Positions 2-10,239 of a stretch of 10,239 nucleotides of DNA are shown here, piece by piece. A program made the position numbers and the translations under genes. Under the pieces are notes generated by a model. It did no database searches. It was not told where the DNA came from and saw only the letters and a list, made by a program, of their open reading frames with translations. The stretch's first letter is position 1; each line of letters starts with the position of its first letter. Source of the stretch: an uncultured Bacteroidia bacterium (GTDB lineage: Bacteria > Bacteroidota > Bacteroidia > Bacteroidales > UBA932); NCBI GenBank assembly GCA_902796455.1, contig CADBPH010000356.1, positions 1-10,239 of the forward strand, written 5' to 3'.

Positions 2-3000
2 TTGCAGGAGGTGAAACAGCGCTATGCCGGGCGGGGTATTTCCTTCTATGCCGAAGGAGCGCTCCTGCAGATGCGGAAAGATTCCCTGGACCGTGTCCAT
101 GCGCCGTCGGCGGAATACCGGGCCCTCTATGACGCCGTGTTGGATTGCGAGCGCAGGCGTGCGGCCCTTACCGGCGAGGAAAAGCGCATTGCCATGGGAG
201 CCTACCATGCTTCCCGGTTAACGGACCAATTGACAGAGACTTCGGTTTCCGTCCAGGTGGAGGAGGATACGGTCCGCGTCCTGTTGCAGAACCTGCCGGG
301 AGCAACGGTCGAGTTGTACCGCGAGGGGACGAAAAAGCCGTTGCTTACCCGGAAGCTGAATAATTCCGCACGCAGTTTTTATGTGACGGATACGCTGCAG
401 ACCCTTCTTCCGGTCCTGGATGACGGCGAATATGTCGTATCGGCTAAAAACGGGAAACTGATCGACCAGGCGGGTTTCCGCCGCTTCACTTTGTCGCTGG
501 CCGAGCGCGAAATCAGTACCGGGCGCGGCGTGTATGTCACAGATTACATGACGGGTGAACCGCTCTCACGGGCGGACCTGATCCTGACCAAGAATGGGAA
601 AGAAGTGGCATCTGCACGGAAAGTAGCGTTGGGAGAAGGGTTTACGCCGCTTCCCAAAAATATTGCCTCGAATATGACCGGGGAGGGATCCTATGCCCTT
701 TCCGCCACGTGGAAGGGACCGGACGGGCGGCTTCGGAAGAGCCAGGAACTGTATGTAGGCGAGATCTTGGAAGCCCCGCTGCGCCGTTTCTCCGGAGAGA
801 GATGCAACCTGTATCTGGACAAGGGGGCATACAACCCCGGCGAGACCGTGCATTTCAAAGGCGTTCTGTATCAGGGAGACATGGTCGACCAGGTCGCGCC
901 TGCCAAGGAAGGGGTACCGGTCCGGGTGACGCTCTTTGACGCCGAAGGGAACAAGGTTTCTTCCCTGGACCTCAAGACAAACGCATGGGGATCGGTCGCC
1001 GGCGAGTTCGCCATTCCGACCGGGCTCCGGAACGGGATGTTTTCCATCGACCTTTCGGGAGATGGTTGGCGGGGGAGCCGTTCGCTGCGGGTGGACGAGT
1101 TTGTCCTGCCTACGTTCGAGGTTTCCTTCGACAAGGTGGAAAAGATGTATATTCCGGGAGATACGGTGACCCTTTCCGGGCATGTGACCAGTTATTCCGG
1201 CCATGCCTTGACCTCTGCAAAAGTTTCTTTCAGAGCGACTTATCAGGACAAGGTCCTGGGAGAGGGAACGGTTTCCCCCGCTTCGGACGGATCATTCTCC
1301 CTGCAATTTGCAACGGATCCGGCCCCGGATTGGGAATACTGCAATGTCGAGGTGACCGTGATGGATGAAACGGGTGAGACCCAAGGGTATAACCGGGGAA
1401 TCTGGGTCGGTACGCAGCTGAACATGGACGTGCAGGTGGAGAATGCCGTTTCCGGCGACTTCTCCCTGCTGGATCCGGCTCCGGAAGAAAAATACTGGCG
1501 GAAGCAGTATTCGGTTTCCACGGCCATCCTGCAGGAAACCGCGGCACGGCTGACGGTCCGTGTATACGGCAATGACGGCGGAACGGTTCCGCTGGAGTCC
1601 GATTGGACGCTCTCCGCCGAGAACGGGACTCTCCTGCAGAAGGGGAAGGCCCTCTCGGGTGTTCCGTTCGAGGTCGACTTGTCGGCCTGCCCGTCTGGCC
1701 TGTATGTCTTCAAGGCCGTCGCCTCCTTGGCGGACCGCTACCATGACCGGGAAATCAAGCGTGAATATACCCAGCAGATAATCAAGTTGTTGCCTGAGGA
1801 TTCGACCCTGGATGCCCCGGTAGAATACCTGTTCCTTTCTCCGGAAGAGGAGGTGGAAACCGGCGGACAGATGCGAGTGCGTGCGGGAACGGCGGGCGGT
1901 CCGGTCTGGGCCGTCGTGGAACTCTACGGTCAGGGACGCTCCCTGCTGCATGCTTCTCTCCTGTACCTGGAGGGGAAACGCGGGCAGGCCGGGTCGTTGC
2001 AGGATCTTTCTTTCGAATACCTGGCGGAATATCCGGATGCCGTCCGCCTGCAGATCTTCTATTTCAAGGACGGAAGTTCCCACACGTATGAAAAGGTGTT
2101 CCGCCGCCATCGGCACACCCTGGACCTTCCGCTGGATTTCACGGTGTTTGAAGACCGGACCTATCCGGATACCGAGCTGACTTTCTCGCTGAAAACGCTG
2201 CCGGAAGTCGAGTGCCTGGCTGCGGTCTTTGACAAGAGCACGGAGCAAATCGCCCCGAATCATTGGCCGGAAGTGTCTTTGAATCAATTTAATGTCCCCA
2301 ATGTGTGGATTTCATCGGTCCCGGGACTCAGCGGGAACGGTTCACCTTCCGTCCTGGTCGGCGCCAGCGGCGGGCTCCGTGTAAGGGGGAAGACCCGGAT
2401 GGCAAAGGGCGCCCGGGTGGAGATGGTGGAAGAGACGATGTTGGCCCGGGAAGCCCCGATGGCGATGAACAGCATGGCGGACAGCAAGGAGATGGCCGAT
2501 GCCCTTCCGGAAGAAATGGCCGACGTGACCGTCCGCGAGGATTTCGCTTCGACCCTGACCTTCCAGCCCTTCCTCTATTCGGACAAGGAGGGGAGACTGT
2601 CCTTCAGTTTCCGGACTTCCGACAAGATATCTACCTATTATGTCGCTGTTTATGGACATGATAAACAAATGCGCAACCGGGCCTTGCGCCGTGAGTTGAC
2701 GGTCACGTTGCCGGCCAAGGTGGCCCTGGTCCAGCCGCAGTACCTGTATGCCGGGGATACCTATACCTTGTCTGCCACCGTGTCGTCCATCGTGGACGAA
2801 CCCTTGGAGGGGACCTTGGCGTTGTATTGCTATAACGGAAAGGATTACAAGCAGTTGCAGCCCGTTTCCGTACAATCGGAACAGCTCCGGGTCCCCGCGC
2901 ATGGCGAGGTGCCCTGCACGTTCCGCGTTCCGGTACGGCCGGATGCGGGAGACATGGGTCTGAAGGTGGTCTTCTCGTCCAAGGACCGCGAAGGAAAAAC

Positions 3001-4687
3001 CTTCTCGGATGCGGTATTCGTTCCGGTGCCGGTATGGGAAGCCCGCCAGCAAGTCACCGAGTCGCACGCTGCCGTCCTGCTGGCCGGCATGGACAAGGAG
3101 GCGCTGGTGAAGCGGCTGCGGGCTGCTTTTGTGAATACGTCCGGCTATGGGGCGGAATACAAGGAAATCAGCATCCTGGATATGGTGAAGGACGCGATTC
3201 CGGACAAGGTGAATCCGGCTTCCATGGACGTCCTCTCGCTGACGGAGGCGCTGTATGTCAGGCTGTTGGCCGCGGAACTCACCGGAAAGGCCTACGTGCC
3301 TGCCGACGGCGGACTGACGGATGCGCAGCTGGTGAAGAAGATTCTGTCCTGCCACAATGCCGACGGCGGATATGGCTGGTTCGAGGGGATGCAGTCCTCT
3401 CCCATTTTGACGGCCGTGGTCCTGGAGCGCCTGGCCAAGATGGCTGCCGGGCCCCGTCCGGAGCAGGATTTATTGTCGCAGTTCTCTCCGGAAAGCGCAG
3501 TTAAATATTTGGATGACAACTACTTCTCTGTAGAACGACCGGTCTGGTGCGGCGGCCTTTCGATGGAACAGTACCTGTATGTACGCTCTTTCTATCCATC
3601 GGTTCCGTTCTCGGTTTCGGGCAGCGGGAATCCCGTCGTATTCCAAAAGCGGATGAAGGAATTCAAGAAGGCGGTGAATGAATATCTCGTGCCGGCGAAA
3701 GTCCGGGGATTGTCCGGCCAGATCCTGGCCAAGGCCCGGCGGCTCGGGACGCTTTACAATCTGGCGGCGGAAGAGGCCGGCACCGCCCTGGCCAAGGCTT
3801 GGGGCGTTACGCTGGGTACCCGCAGCAAGGTGCTGTCTTCCCTGGGGGACGATGTGCGTTCGCTGCTGGAATATGCTGTGCCTCACCGGGATGGAGGGAT
3901 GTATTATCCCAATGCCGTGATGCCTTTCCGCGGGCTGTTGGAGAATGAAGCCTATGCCCATTCGCTCCTGTGCGACCTGCTTGCCGACTATGTCCGGTAT
4001 GCTGCTCCGGGAGATGAGGCTGTTTCCCGTGCCGTTTCTACGGCAGATGCGGTGCGGATCTGGCTGATGCTCCAGAAAGAGACGCAGCATTGGGATGAAG
4101 AACCGGCCTTTGTGGATGCCATCCACTCGGTGCTCAACGGCTCCGATGCCGTGAAAGCGACGTCGGTGCTGGTGATGACACAGACTTATGAGAAGCCGTT
4201 CGAGGAGATCAAGGCGGCCGGGAATGGGTTTACTGTCCGCCGCCGCTTCTTCCGGCTGGCATCCTCGGAAGAGGAAACGGTTTCTGTCCAGGAGATCCAG
4301 CCGGGCACCGTGCTGAAGCGCGGCGACCGGATCCGGGCGGAATATGAGATCTGGAATGCCGAGAACCGCAGTTTCGTGCGGCTGACGGCGCCCCGCGAGG
4401 CGGCGCTCCGGCCGGTCCGGCAGCTGTCCGGCATGTACGGATGGGGAATCCGGCCGCTGCGGGTAGGAACTTACTTCTCGTTCCAGCCGCAGGGATACCG
4501 GAACGTGAAGCCTTCCTGTACGGAGTATTATTTTGATGTTTATCCGGAGGAAAAATCGACGGTTTCGGAAGAGTTCTTTGTGACGCAGACCGGGACATTC
4601 TCGGCGCCGGTCGTGCAGATTGAATCCCTCTATGCACCCCATTACCGGGCGAATGGAGGTTTTGGAAGTAAAGTTATTGTAGAATAG
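2..4687 (+). CDS. Alpha-2-macroglobulin family protein, 5' end cut by window
   Basis: Large envelope protein of the bacterial alpha-2-macroglobulin family, which in other bacteria is thought to trap attacking proteases in the periplasm or at the outer membrane. The frame is open to the left edge, so 1561 residues are the C-terminal part; the TTG at position 2 is probably an internal Leu codon, and the signal peptide or lipobox lies outside. Visible order: an MG2-like beta domain near residues 269-360 (LYLDKGAYNPGETVHFKG), the next MG domain from about 364 (VDEFVLPTFEV), a Met-rich segment at about 800-842, the A2M core domain (PF00207-like) from about 843 (TYYVAVYGHDKQMRNR), an alpha-toroid thioester-domain-like region around 1040-1330 (NADGGYGWFEGM near 1120), and a C-terminal beta domain ending in a TQTGTFSAPVVQIESLYAP motif. 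No CxEQ thioester motif occurs where it is expected. The next gene starts 5 bases after the TAG stop. The family call is firm; protease inhibition here is inferred. Confidence 0.9.
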   Translation: MQEVKQRYAGRGISFYAEGALLQMRKDSLDRVHAPSAEYRALYDAVLDCERRRAALTGEEKRIAMGAYHASRLTDQLTETSVSVQVEEDTVRVLLQNLPGATVELYREGTKKPLLTRKLNNSARSFYVTDTLQTLLPVLDDGEYVVSAKNGKLIDQAGFRRFTLSLAEREISTGRGVYVTDYMTGEPLSRADLILTKNGKEVASARKVALGEGFTPLPKNIASNMTGEGSYALSATWKGPDGRLRKSQELYVGEILEAPLRRFSGERCNLYLDKGAYNPGETVHFKGVLYQGDMVDQVAPAKEGVPVRVTLFDAEGNKVSSLDLKTNAWGSVAGEFAIPTGLRNGMFSIDLSGDGWRGSRSLRVDEFVLPTFEVSFDKVEKMYIPGDTVTLSGHVTSYSGHALTSAKVSFRATYQDKVLGEGTVSPASDGSFSLQFATDPAPDWEYCNVEVTVMDETGETQGYNRGIWVGTQLNMDVQVENAVSGDFSLLDPAPEEKYWRKQYSVSTAILQETAARLTVRVYGNDGGTVPLESDWTLSAENGTLLQKGKALSGVPFEVDLSACPSGLYVFKAVASLADRYHDREIKREYTQQIIKLLPEDSTLDAPVEYLFLSPEEEVETGGQMRVRAGTAGGPVWAVVELYGQGRSLLHASLLYLEGKRGQAGSLQDLSFEYLAEYPDAVRLQIFYFKDGSSHTYEKVFRRHRHTLDLPLDFTVFEDRTYPDTELTFSLKTLPEVECLAAVFDKSTEQIAPNHWPEVSLNQFNVPNVWISSVPGLSGNGSPSVLVGASGGLRVRGKTRMAKGARVEMVEETMLAREAPMAMNSMADSKEMADALPEEMADVTVREDFASTLTFQPFLYSDKEGRLSFSFRTSDKISTYYVAVYGHDKQMRNRALRRELTVTLPAKVALVQPQYLYAGDTYTLSATVSSIVDEPLEGTLALYCYNGKDYKQLQPVSVQSEQLRVPAHGEVPCTFRVPVRPDAGDMGLKVVFSSKDREGKTFSDAVFVPVPVWEARQQVTESHAAVLLAGMDKEALVKRLRAAFVNTSGYGAEYKEISILDMVKDAIPDKVNPASMDVLSLTEALYVRLLAAELTGKAYVPADGGLTDAQLVKKILSCHNADGGYGWFEGMQSSPILTAVVLERLAKMAAGPRPEQDLLSQFSPESAVKYLDDNYFSVERPVWCGGLSMEQYLYVRSFYPSVPFSVSGSGNPVVFQKRMKEFKKAVNEYLVPAKVRGLSGQILAKARRLGTLYNLAAEEAGTALAKAWGVTLGTRSKVLSSLGDDVRSLLEYAVPHRDGGMYYPNAVMPFRGLLENEAYAHSLLCDLLADYVRYAAPGDEAVSRAVSTADAVRIWLMLQKETQHWDEEPAFVDAIHSVLNGSDAVKATSVLVMTQTYEKPFEEIKAAGNGFTVRRRFFRLASSEEETVSVQEIQPGTVLKRGDRIRAEYEIWNAENRSFVRLTAPREAALRPVRQLSGMYGWGIRPLRVGTYFSFQPQGYRNVKPSCTEYYFDVYPEEKSTVSEEFFVTQTGTFSAPVVQIESLYAPHYRANGGFGSKVIVE

Positions 4688-6975: not shown

Positions 6976-8826
6976 CTAGCGGACTTTATACTTCAATGTG
7001 ACGGTTCCGGCTGTCTCCGGCCGGAGGCGTACGGCGATTCTGGTGTATGGAGTCCTGCCCTCTGTGATTTCCTCGGTGATAATATCGTAATTGTTTGAGC
7101 TTGAATGGATTGTTAGCGTCATACTTTCGCCGTTCCGGGAAAGTTCGATTTTCTTCCTGTCAATTACCTGGACATCCGCCCTTGTCGTGACGGCGGTCTC
7201 GAAGACCTGTGCGGAATCAAACCGGAAGCGGTCCGTGACGGTCAAAGTCAATTTCTTCCTGTCGAAGTCAAACTCCCGGGCCGACTCTTTCAACTGCGGG
7301 ATCTCATAGGCAGAAGACAGTTCCATCCCGAACAAATCCCTGCGGTCAGAGAACGAGCAACTCAAATTTGTTGCCATGAAGTTTTTCCCGGCAGATTGTG
7401 TCTTCCCGCAGATGAAGGGCACATTGTGCCCGTATGAGCCGAGGGATTTGAAAGCGGTGTATCTTTCCGGGGTGAAGGACTTGATATTGTAGGGAATCAG
7501 TCCGGGATCTTCCACCATTTTCTCCTTTCCTGAAACGATGGTGTAGGAACCTATATCATTGTGATTATGGGACTCGGCATTGTGTCCGCCCTTCAGCGCG
7601 GCTCCGAACCGGTTCTTTGGATCGCGGACGACCAGGATCCCGGACTGCTCGAAATATGAGCGCAGGGGATTTCCGGCATCGCCGGAATCGTCCATTTCCG
7701 CCGCATAATTCTGATACACGTCAAGGTATACTGTCGTCACATTATCAGTATTCCCCAATGACGGTGTCTTGCTGAAGGGGAGGGGGAGTCCCAATTCCCT
7801 GCCAAGGTATCGCAGGATGCCCGGCTTCGGTTTTGCCGCCATATTGCAGTCTGCAATCGACGGATAAACCTCGTTCACGATAACGATGTTTTGCGGGAAG
7901 GTGGCAATACTCCTGACTTTCGGATTATTCCGGAACAGGTCTATTTTTCCCTGTGTGTCCCGGTACAACTTTTCGCGCAGGACGATATAGTGTGCCATCC
8001 CGAAGTTGTAGTAGCTTATTCCTTCGGTACAGTAGCCGTCATCCTGGAACCCCTCCATATAGTTCTGGACATATTTCTCGGCGATGGCAACGAATTTCGC
8101 CCTTTCCAGCCGGTCAGGAATCATCTCCATGGCCGCGCAGACCACCCCCTCCAGGCAAACCGGATTCCAATTGTTCGTCCTTTGCAGTCAGCCGTGGTCT
8201 TTGTTCTTCCCTTCAATCGCTCCCATCAAAGGATCGAAAGCCCTGGTGTACAACTGCCCGAGCAAATCTTCACGGACGGAATCCGGAACTTTGTCATCCA
8301 GCATGAAAAGTGCTTGTGAAAGCAGGTGTGACATCAACGCCGTGCAGAGTTCAACCAATCCTCCGCAGTTCCGCTTTTTGTACATGCGCGAAGATACCCA
8401 TGTCTCCTGGCCCATGATGTCATATAAGAAGGAAATGATCAACGGCGTGAACCGCCCCTTGTTTTCCAGGCATTCTGCCCAGACTAAGGTTGAAAAGGCC
8501 CTTGACCGGTTTTCCATCATGTATTTGCCGGGATTGGTATCCCCTTCGGAGAAGGTTTTGTCGTAGGCCTCCTGGTCCCATTTCGGGAATCCCTTTGACA
8601 GCATTTCCTCCGCTTTGCCCAGGGCGGCACCGTACTGGCCGCTCTGATACAATCGGTCCCACAGCTCCCGGTCTTTGTAGTTGGGACCGATCCCTGATGT
8701 TGACTCCGGGAGCATTTCGGCAATCTGCCTGACCCGTTCCATGTCCAGCGGACCGATCGGTTGGATGGCGGACGCATTGAGGGTGAGAACGGTGGCGAGG
8801 AGCACTACGGCCAGCGCTTTCTTCAT
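6976..8826 (-). pseudogene. Heparinase II/III-family lyase, interrupted by in-frame TGA
   Basis: Read on the minus strand from ATG 8826 to TAG 6976-6978, this is a 616-codon frame with one TGA at codon 213 (8188-8190). Residues 1-20 are a signal peptide ending in NASA, so the product would be periplasmic. The N-terminal half is an alpha-toroid as in alginate lyase/heparinase proteins, with RTNNWNPVC at about 216-224 and DGYCTEGISYYNFG at about 263-276, which carries the Tyr region used in catalysis in the family. The C-terminal half is the heparinase II/III-like beta-sandwich (PF07940-like), with GGHNAESHNHNDIGSY at about 413-428 holding the conserved His residues, then EDPG. Such enzymes cleave uronic-acid polysaccharides by beta-elimination; the substrate is not readable here. 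The frame is unbroken on both sides of the TGA, and the family usually has Trp at that place (HG-W-LQRTNNWN), so a single TGG to TGA change is likely. It is either a very young pseudogene or a sequence error. It lies 28 bases behind the phosphatase/glycosidase fusion gene, in one operon. Confidence 0.85.
8188..8190 (-). other. Premature TGA inside lyase gene
   Basis: On the minus strand the codons around it read AAA GAC CAC GGC TGA CTG CAA. The frame before (212 codons with signal peptide) and after (403 codons with the catalytic domain) is the same, with no insertion or deletion. TGG to TGA is the simplest explanation. The same codon ends the intact HAD gene at 6742-6744, which argues against a genome-wide reassignment of TGA. 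Confidence 0.9.
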
Positions 8827-8854: not shown

Positions 8855-10239
8855 CTACCGGCCCGCTTGCCGGTCGATGATGTGGATGTGCGTGGGGACG
8901 CGACGTTCTTTGTCGTGCAGGAACGTCTGGGACGCGGACGGATAATTCACCACGTGGGTTTCCGCCTGTCCCCGGTCCTTGACACACAGGGCGGTGGAAC
9001 CGCCGCCATCCATGTTGATCGCCTGTTCGGGATGGAATTCCTTTTCCAGGAACGAGGTCAGTTCGAACGCGTTCATCCCTTCTGCCAGTCCGGGTCTCCG
9101 TCCGTCTACGGCGATGAGAATCAGGTGGTTGTCAGCAGTTAACGCCACGGCGCTGCGGGGATGCCGGACCGCCTGGTGCCGCAGCGGGTCCTCGTAGCTG
9201 AGTTTTTCCACCTGCTCCGGGGTCAGGCTGCTGGTCGCGAAATACTTGCCCACGGGAATAAAATGGTCGATCAGCATGGGGGCGCTGGTGAAGACATCCG
9301 GGTAGGGAAGCGCTTCATAGGCAGCCCGTTGCTGCGGGATGGAAAGGTCTTTTCCCGTGTATTCGATCCGGACATTCCGGCCGTCGGTACTGATCGAACA
9401 GTCTGATTTCCACTGCGGAACGGCGCCTTTGTACGGAACGATGTTGCTCTCAATGTTATAATACGTCTTGCCATCCACCCGGATATAGACCGACTCCTTC
9501 TCGTAGGTGGCATTGATTGTCGCAACGGCTCCGGCATCCCGGAAAGCTTCCGAGGTGGCCCGCCGTTCTCCGTACGTGAATTTGACTCCGTACCGCGGGT
9601 TATTCAGGTCCACATCGACGGCATAAATCAGCTGGTTGACGCCGGAAATGGGCTCCTTCCCGCTGAAACGCCTGTAAATGAGTCCCTCTTGAATCGTATC
9701 GTTCTGCCATCCGTCCCGGGCGAATCCGGGCGCTCCGGCAATCAGGCCCCGGTAGGCCTTGCGCAGGTCGGTCCAGTGGTAGAACGGCCATGTGTCTGTT
9801 TCAATCCCGACAAGATGCGATTCCTGTTCGTTCAGCAGCACTTTGACCAGGATGTCATCCGAACCCTTTTTCTTGAAAAAGACCATTTGGATATTCGCCC
9901 CCATCGGGCAGGTCCGGTCTACCCGCCAGGCAGTCTCGGGATGGGCCAGGTCTTCCGCCGGGGTGCAACTCCCTTCGATTTTCATCAGGGAAGCGAGCGG
10001 AATGAGCTGGGAATCATGTCCATAGCGGAGCGTCGCCCGATACGGGCCGCCCTGGACCGCCACGTCGGCTGCGTCCAGCATGTGCGTCAGGGTATGTGAC
10101 GCCTGGTCGTCAAGCAACTCCCCGTATTCGCGGGAAGGGCCGATGGTGAAATACTCGATGTGGTTTTGGGTCTTCCAGATGTTCTGGAAATCTTCCGCCG
10201 TGAAAAACCGGAACAGGTCCACGCCCACCTCGTCGTTCA
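8855..10239 (-). CDS. Histidine acid phosphatase-phosphodiester glycosidase fusion, 5' end cut by window
   Basis: Minus-strand frame open from the right edge to TAG 8855-8857. The GTG at 10228 is not a likely start because the frame continues to the edge within a known domain; residues below are counted from it. Residues 1-163 are the C-terminal part of a histidine-type acid phosphatase (phytase/MINPP-like): LRYGHDSQLIPLASLM with the HD proton-donor motif at 71-72, then GANIQMVFFKKKGSDDILVKVLLNE and FYHWTDLRKAY. The RHGxRxP nucleophile motif must lie outside the window. Residues about 175-455 are a complete phosphodiester glycosidase domain (NAGPA/DUF2233, PF09992-like): VATINATY at 235-242, RSAVALTADNHLILIAVDGR at 358-377, NMDGGGSTALCV at 405-416 and a C-terminal VPTHIHI strand. 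NAGPA-type enzymes cut a sugar from a sugar-1-phosphate diester, as the human uncovering enzyme does with GlcNAc-P-mannose. There is no stop, start or signal peptide between the two parts. The protein is presumably exported, though its N-terminus is not visible. It precedes the lyase gene by 28 bases. Confidence 0.85.
   Translation of the reverse strand, partial: NDEVGVDLFRFFTAEDFQNIWKTQNHIEYFTIGPSREYGELLDDQASHTLTHMLDAADVAVQGGPYRATLRYGHDSQLIPLASLMKIEGSCTPAEDLAHPETAWRVDRTCPMGANIQMVFFKKKGSDDILVKVLLNEQESHLVGIETDTWPFYHWTDLRKAYRGLIAGAPGFARDGWQNDTIQEGLIYRRFSGKEPISGVNQLIYAVDVDLNNPRYGVKFTYGERRATSEAFRDAGAVATINATYEKESVYIRVDGKTYYNIESNIVPYKGAVPQWKSDCSISTDGRNVRIEYTGKDLSIPQQRAAYEALPYPDVFTSAPMLIDHFIPVGKYFATSSLTPEQVEKLSYEDPLRHQAVRHPRSAVALTADNHLILIAVDGRRPGLAEGMNAFELTSFLEKEFHPEQAINMDGGGSTALCVKDRGQAETHVVNYPSASQTFLHDKERRVPTHIHIIDRQAGR

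Follow-up and report, generated by a model that had tools for sequence, protein, structure and literature searches.

The window analysed here is a stretch of 10,239 nucleotides from an uncultured Bacteroidia bacterium, namely one entire contig (CADBPH010000356.1; G000:C356) of a metagenome-assembled genome (MAG) that is 2.29 Mb long and 78% complete. At its end, on the minus strand, lies a gene that joins a histidine phosphatase of the MINPP (inositol polyphosphate phosphatase) type to a predicted phosphodiester glycosidase of the NAGPA/DUF2233 family. Vertebrate NAGPA releases phosphodiester-linked sugars. The C-terminal 460 residues and the stop codon of the fusion gene occupy 8855..10237 as a single frame without an internal stop; the frame enters from the open contig end and closes with TAG at 8855-8857. 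Some 250 residues at the N-terminus fall outside the contig, the alignment with a full-length relative beginning at residue 253 of that relative. The original prediction had proposed one unbroken frame running from a phosphatase (GHDSQL) into a NAGPA/DUF2233 domain (DGGGST), and this was borne out by the 460-residue frame, by Pfam and by a match to the protein of known structure 7r5y.

The phosphatase is represented by ~170 residues of its C-terminal part (9728..10237, minus strand). Residues 10-172 of the window protein match 7r5y, a histidine acid phosphatase of the MINPP type, with E 1.1e-26, and the MINPP fold was recognised for the phosphatase. The Pfam family His_Phos_2 scored 19.2 bits, under its cut-off of 23.6 (residues 11-136; profile positions 225-354 of 354), and the identity is assigned despite this score because of the 7r5y match. 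The proton-donor (HD) motif, RYGHDSQL, lies at 10004..10027 (minus) and is aligned with RYGHDTNL of 7r5y. After a linker of ~10 residues follows the predicted NAGPA domain (8873..9712, minus), which begins at residue 176 according to the alignment to relatives; Pfam NAGPA (PF09992) covers residues 266-453 with 77.9 bits against a curated cut-off of 25. Two conserved NAGPA motifs lie on the same strand, MDGGGST at 8993..9013, the 3ohg counterpart of which was aligned with related NAGPA domains, and VRHPRSA at 9149..9169, which corresponds to RTAV in vertebrate NAGPA. A search of the organism's own MAG with a relative's version of the missing N-terminal part gave only matches of 26-43% identity, compared with 70-72% identity between the window fragment and three full-length relatives.

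Conservation and distribution of the fused family

In full-length relatives (64-72% identical), both domains are complete, the MINPP-type phosphatase carrying RHGSR and GHD and the NAGPA domain carrying DGGGS, and the protein begins with a signal-peptide-like stretch. The fetched loci hold 34 fused frames, of which 33 contain RHGxR (the start is missing from L062), all 34 contain GHD and 33 contain DGGGS. Of the features that the original prediction had proposed to look for upstream, RHGxR is found in the relatives, and a signal-peptide-like start is seen there by a crude rule; the window's own copy of the motif is off the contig. A dead phosphatase remnant was ruled out for the family on the basis of the RHGxR count. 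With redundancy removed on the last 250 residues, 109 distinct fused proteins remained, and 96 of these kept RHG, GHD and DGGGS together. The 13 exceptions comprise five with a shortened NAGPA part without DGGGS (one of them also without RHG), two with a changed DGGGS, four that lack the GHD pattern, the copy in L062 and the window protein. In P0033, P0036, P0037 and L092, LDDGETS or LDDGESS stands in place of DGGGS, and the GHD motif stays.

These counts bear on whether the NAGPA part could be a leftover, or a carbohydrate-binding domain without catalysis, attached to a functional phosphatase. Such a reading would accommodate the five degenerate and two altered copies, but DGGGS is kept in 102 of the 109 fused proteins, and the vertebrate NAGPA motifs RTAV, VDG and NLDGGGS have counterparts in the window and in 17 aligned relatives, so that we consider it highly improbable. 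By a crude rule that visibly misreads some proteins, the signal was SPI-like in 73/89 phosphatase-first and 21/26 NAGPA-first proteins, and lipoprotein-like in 42/69 stand-alone NAGPA proteins. The fusion family, which occurs in bacteria of the herbivore gut, is probably secreted.

The fusion recurs within the genus. We surveyed 400 genus genomes at E 1e-35 or better, scoring at most four candidates per genome, and 103 of them matched. The match spanned both halves in at least 39 genomes, of which 16 belong to the window's subgroup (its own genome included) and 23 to a second subgroup; in at least 23 of the 400, the NAGPA half alone matched, in frames of 721-772 residues that fit the reversed domain order. 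A domain search on 40 fetched loci found the phosphatase-NAGPA order in 25 (one, L092, with a shortened NAGPA), the reversed order in nine, and one of the two domains in six (three NAGPA without phosphatase, three phosphatase with or without other partners). The reversed order was confirmed in all nine such loci fetched, which cover nine of the 23 genomes with NAGPA-half matches. Further proteins with both domains, which the original prediction had proposed to search for, were also obtained from a database search with the relative L053 (7990 candidates scored), the 89 hits of which included 50 in the window's order and nine in the reversed order. With the join recurring in many genomes and in both orders, an assembly artefact was ruled out. 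Among the named loci L093-L132, 24 of 40 carry the fusion; at least nine of these 24 are from the rumen, omasum or reticulum of buffalo, goat, sheep or roe deer, and the others name no site. Outside the genus, we found matches to the phosphatase half only, both in a sample of the order (32 of 393 genomes matched at E 1e-30, at most two candidates scored in each) and in a sample of the family (14 of 149 genomes at E 1e-60, at most seven scored in each), weaker or unscored matches falling outside these samples. Proteins of ~1000 residues with a C-terminal NAGPA domain occur at L077:2545-5712, L078:2399-5548 and L081:9203-12142; those of L077 and L081 gave no Pfam match besides NAGPA at E 0.01.

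Both domains were placed on quick trees with long branches. The phosphatase tree (105 rows) separates three sets of fusions, namely the window's subgroup, subgroup 2 together with the reversed group, and subgroup 3, and single-domain phosphatases fall between them. In the NAGPA tree (123 rows), which leaves out the NAGPA parts of subgroup 3 as partial matches only, the reversed group neighbours subgroup 2 and the window's subgroup stands among stand-alone NAGPA proteins. On these sequences, the reversed group and subgroup 2 look like one pair of domains in two orders. A first test of a single clade of fusions (77 vs 28 rows, p 1e-9) was discarded, as apparent losses or contig-cut single-domain copies had been counted as outsiders. 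After four single-domain rows were moved inside (81 vs 24), a single clade was weakly rejected in the phosphatase tree (p 0.020), in a test whose groups were named after the tree was seen. A clade of the window's subgroup, subgroup 2 and the reversed group was not rejected (p 0.26), nor was a single clade in the NAGPA tree (p 0.32; 62 vs 59 rows, with P0046 and L044 in neither side). Taken together, the single-clade tests gave mixed results.

Relation to known phosphatases and glycosidases

Compared with MINPP-type phosphatases such as BtMinpp (4fdt) and the MINPP of Prevotella sp. CAG:617 (7r5y), the window's family is distinguished by its fusion to NAGPA. Passages of PMC3969271 give RHGxRxP as the MINPP nucleophile motif and the HAE tripeptide as a feature of mammalian and plant MINPP and of BtMinpp, and in BtMinpp they propose His59 as nucleophile and Glu325 as proton donor and point out the basic residue Arg183. 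Relatives in the window's subgroup mostly read RHGSRYL, with L for the P of the MINPP motif, and 7r5y likewise has RHGSRYL. HAE is absent from the window, which has GHDSQ instead; 7r5y, although deposited as MINPP, has GHDTN. Because the HAE tripeptide was not found, we use the label "MINPP-type" and not classical HAE MINPP. The histidine acid phosphatase of the original prediction is refined here to a MINPP-type enzyme, and its pairing with NAGPA is one of a broader set of fusions to enzymes that cleave diesters.

In structure, the phosphatase best matches MINPP enzymes whose crystals contain inositol hexakissulfate or phytate. This agrees with an alternative in which the protein acts on an inositol phosphate, the phosphatase being a phytase and NAGPA opening a diester of the glycosyl- or glycero-phosphoinositol kind, such as one from plant or protozoal lipids. 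The position of BtMinpp Arg183, at which no basic residue is seen in the window's subgroup, speaks only weakly against it, as the alignment is gappy at this place, which lies outside the window's part of the protein. A nearby insertion carries K or R in subgroup 2, and 7r5y, itself deposited as MINPP, has I with an adjacent K. No phytate-specific neighbour was noticed among the selected neighbours scanned, and we regard this alternative as improbable.

The NAGPA part has a fold and conserved motifs in common with BACOVA_00430 (3ohg) and the vertebrate uncovering enzyme (6pku, 6pkg), the fold being that of a relative's predicted model, whereas it is distant from them in sequence (~20% identity) and comes with a phosphatase domain of its own. 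An eLife text states that NAGPA releases phosphodiester-linked sugars. NAGPA is also combined with a phosphoesterase in fusions with calcineurin-like ShfP-family domains, but these, as described in PMC11488536, have another phosphoesterase fold and are cell-surface proteins. Among the titles and abstract starts listed from open-access PMC literature, none describes a MINPP- or histidine-phosphatase-NAGPA fusion, and no characterised homologue came to light in the searches made. The fusion combines two enzyme families that are each known, in a pairing for which the searches gave no description, and it falls within a broader tendency of MINPP-type phosphatases to be fused to other enzymes, including diester openers.

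Fusion partners and neighbouring genes

Both domains have exchanged partners. NAGPA of the window's type is also joined to an enzyme of the endonuclease/exonuclease/phosphatase (EEP) family (P0063), to a phosphatase of another His_Phos_2 clade, in which the motif reads RHNLRSP (P0061), and, in P0062, to an esterase. P0063 is a protein of 586 residues; its EEP domain gave no match to PDB 4c1r and looks, from its sequence, like the other, distant EEP kind. The MINPP-type phosphatase, in turn, is fused in the window's own MAG (G000:C148:9199-11136, equal to L188:2700-4637) to GDPD, a partner of the glycerophosphodiester phosphodiesterase family instead of NAGPA. The same fusion occurs in L191 and L203 and, from precomputed domains, in at least 46 proteins (46 among the 120 listed of 1051 matched). 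A search for it in the 400 genus genomes at E 1e-60 matched seven, and the match spanned both domains in two (the own genome and G280). Further partners are calcineurin-type domains in L091 and L192 (in the latter an N-terminal part, the frame being cut at the contig end) and a 5'-nucleotidase C-terminal domain in L089 and L199, from one genome. Four further frames scanned had no second Pfam family (three phosphatase alone, one with nothing). At L090:7500-11972, a protein of 1491 residues combines the phosphatase with a GH106 rhamnosidase.

The surroundings of the fusion were compared among 13 loci of the window's subgroup (L053-L064 and L092). A SusC/SusD pair is present in five of them, accompanied in four by one EEP kind (EEPa) and in one by a different kind (EEPb). 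EEPa adjoins the fusion in L059 and L060 and shares its SusC/SusD cluster in L056 and L057; in all four it is a separate protein, and the L060 member matches 4c1r, named mannosyl-6-phosphatase by its depositor, with E 2.7e-49. This homologue is not found in the loci of the window's closest relatives. In the other eight loci, the search found no SusC, SusD or EEP, L061 having an apparent SusC fragment at the contig end. A calcineurin-type phosphoesterase gene follows the fusion on the same strand in L054, and after two other genes in L053.

Among the nine reversed loci, stand-alone NAGPA genes were found in eight (in L077 and L078 ~12 kb or more away), SusC with SusD in four, EEPb in two, a small GDSL esterase in five, and an OPA-kind transporter beside the fusion in four; L075 has two shorter frames matching it further off. 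The L087 transporter is nearest to the PgtP, GlpT and UhpC models, all below cut-off. The nine loci of subgroup 2 (L065-L072 and L081) have EEPb in three, a separate NAGPA gene in three and a SusC-SusD pair in one. L120, which has no fusion, carries in a row SusC, SusD, EEPb, a BT_3987-like lipoprotein, NAGPA, DUF4886, EEPa, a calcineurin-type phosphoesterase, the same kind of transporter, a GDSL esterase and a phosphohexomutase. These neighbour sets act largely on phosphate esters and acyl esters; rhamnosidase, GH20, GH31 and GH97 genes are present in some loci. Yeast-mannan degradation was considered and set aside, as no GH76, GH92 or GH99 occurred among the 20 neighbours scanned, a minority of all neighbours.

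The window's own genes include no SusC/SusD pair, though the contig ends inside the fusion gene. A heparinase II/III-like gene (6976-8826, minus) begins 29 bases after the end of the fusion gene and has one in-frame TGA at 8188-8190, which indicates a broken gene or a sequencing error. A bacterial alpha-2-macroglobulin-like gene (MG2, A2M, bMG10) occupies 2-4687 on the plus strand, and after it come genes for a DUF2807 protein and for a hydrolase of the HAD type.

A predicted two-step action

With a probability of roughly 0.58, we propose that the fusion is a phosphoesterase of two domains that a gut Bacteroidales genus secretes, probably into the periplasm, and in which NAGPA opens a sugar-1-phosphodiester and the MINPP-type phosphatase removes the resulting phosphomonoester. 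The NAGPA domain would hydrolyse sugar-O-PO2-O-R to sugar and R-phosphate, and the phosphatase would then cleave R-phosphate, via a phosphohistidine intermediate, to R and phosphate. The substrate may be a microbial or fungal sugar-phosphate glycan imported by SusC/SusD-type systems. Computation established the domain identities, both domain orders, motif conservation, the recurrence and the neighbours, and a crude rule gave the signal-peptide-like starts; the two activities, their sequential action on one substrate, the periplasmic place and the nature of the substrate are inferred. The partner swapping fits the sequence "open diester, then remove phosphate". More tentatively, the MINPP-fold phosphatase of this gut genus may have become a plug-in monoesterase, fused to NAGPA (in both orders), GDPD and calcineurin-type openers to give a series of two-step enzymes that lead from diester to free phosphate. 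Once SusC/SusD systems have taken up microbial or fungal glycans linked through sugar-1-phosphate, the NAGPA version would uncap and dephosphorylate them; we hold this broader view to be possible but short of probable.

Several points weigh against the proposed two-step action. The window is without the nucleophile half of the phosphatase, alignment placing the RHG motif off the contig. The closest relatives L053, L054 and L055 lack SusC/SusD in the fetched stretch, and the mixed clade tests allow, on sequence grounds, one fusion event or several. A shortened NAGPA without DGGGS, with the phosphatase kept, occurs in P0033, P0035, P0036, P0037 and L092 (L092:8571-10424), and P0040-P0042, inside the window's subgroup, have the phosphatase without NAGPA. 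Because some lineages of this subgroup have a degenerate NAGPA or none, the coupling is not obligatory, and the phosphatase can dispense with its NAGPA partner. The phosphatase is also joined to partners that open no diester, namely GH106 (L090), an esterase (L194) and GH20 (P0150, precomputed), and fusion by itself is therefore no proof of one pathway.

The phosphatase could equally scavenge several monoesters. The domains might be two unconnected phosphate-scavenging activities, each with its own substrates, in which the fusion only ensures co-secretion. The many phosphatase partners, including those that open no diester, and the single-domain relatives inside the window's subgroup (of which P0040 was placed on the tree) agree with this, whereas several kinds of diester-opening partner (NAGPA, GDPD, calcineurin type) recur and NAGPA occurs in both orders; we judge it unlikely, though less so than the inositol phosphate alternative. 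For the sequential decapping and dephosphorylation that the original prediction had put forward, the retention of the three motifs, the recurrence and the partner swapping are all in agreement, while a substrate of the mannose-6-phosphate type stays unproven, the mannosyl-6-phosphatase homologue being present at only 4/13 subgroup loci. The two-step mechanism is plausible, and has more in its favour than when it was first put forward.

To our knowledge, the opening of sugar-1-phosphodiester linkages in bacterial glycans has been characterised for few enzymes. The recurrent fusion with a monoesterase suggests in which order the steps run, and supplies a defined group of proteins for assay. It would show how gut Bacteroidales may reach the phosphate and sugars locked in phosphodiester-linked glycans, and a single protein that both uncaps and dephosphorylates would be a useful tool for phosphoglycan studies.
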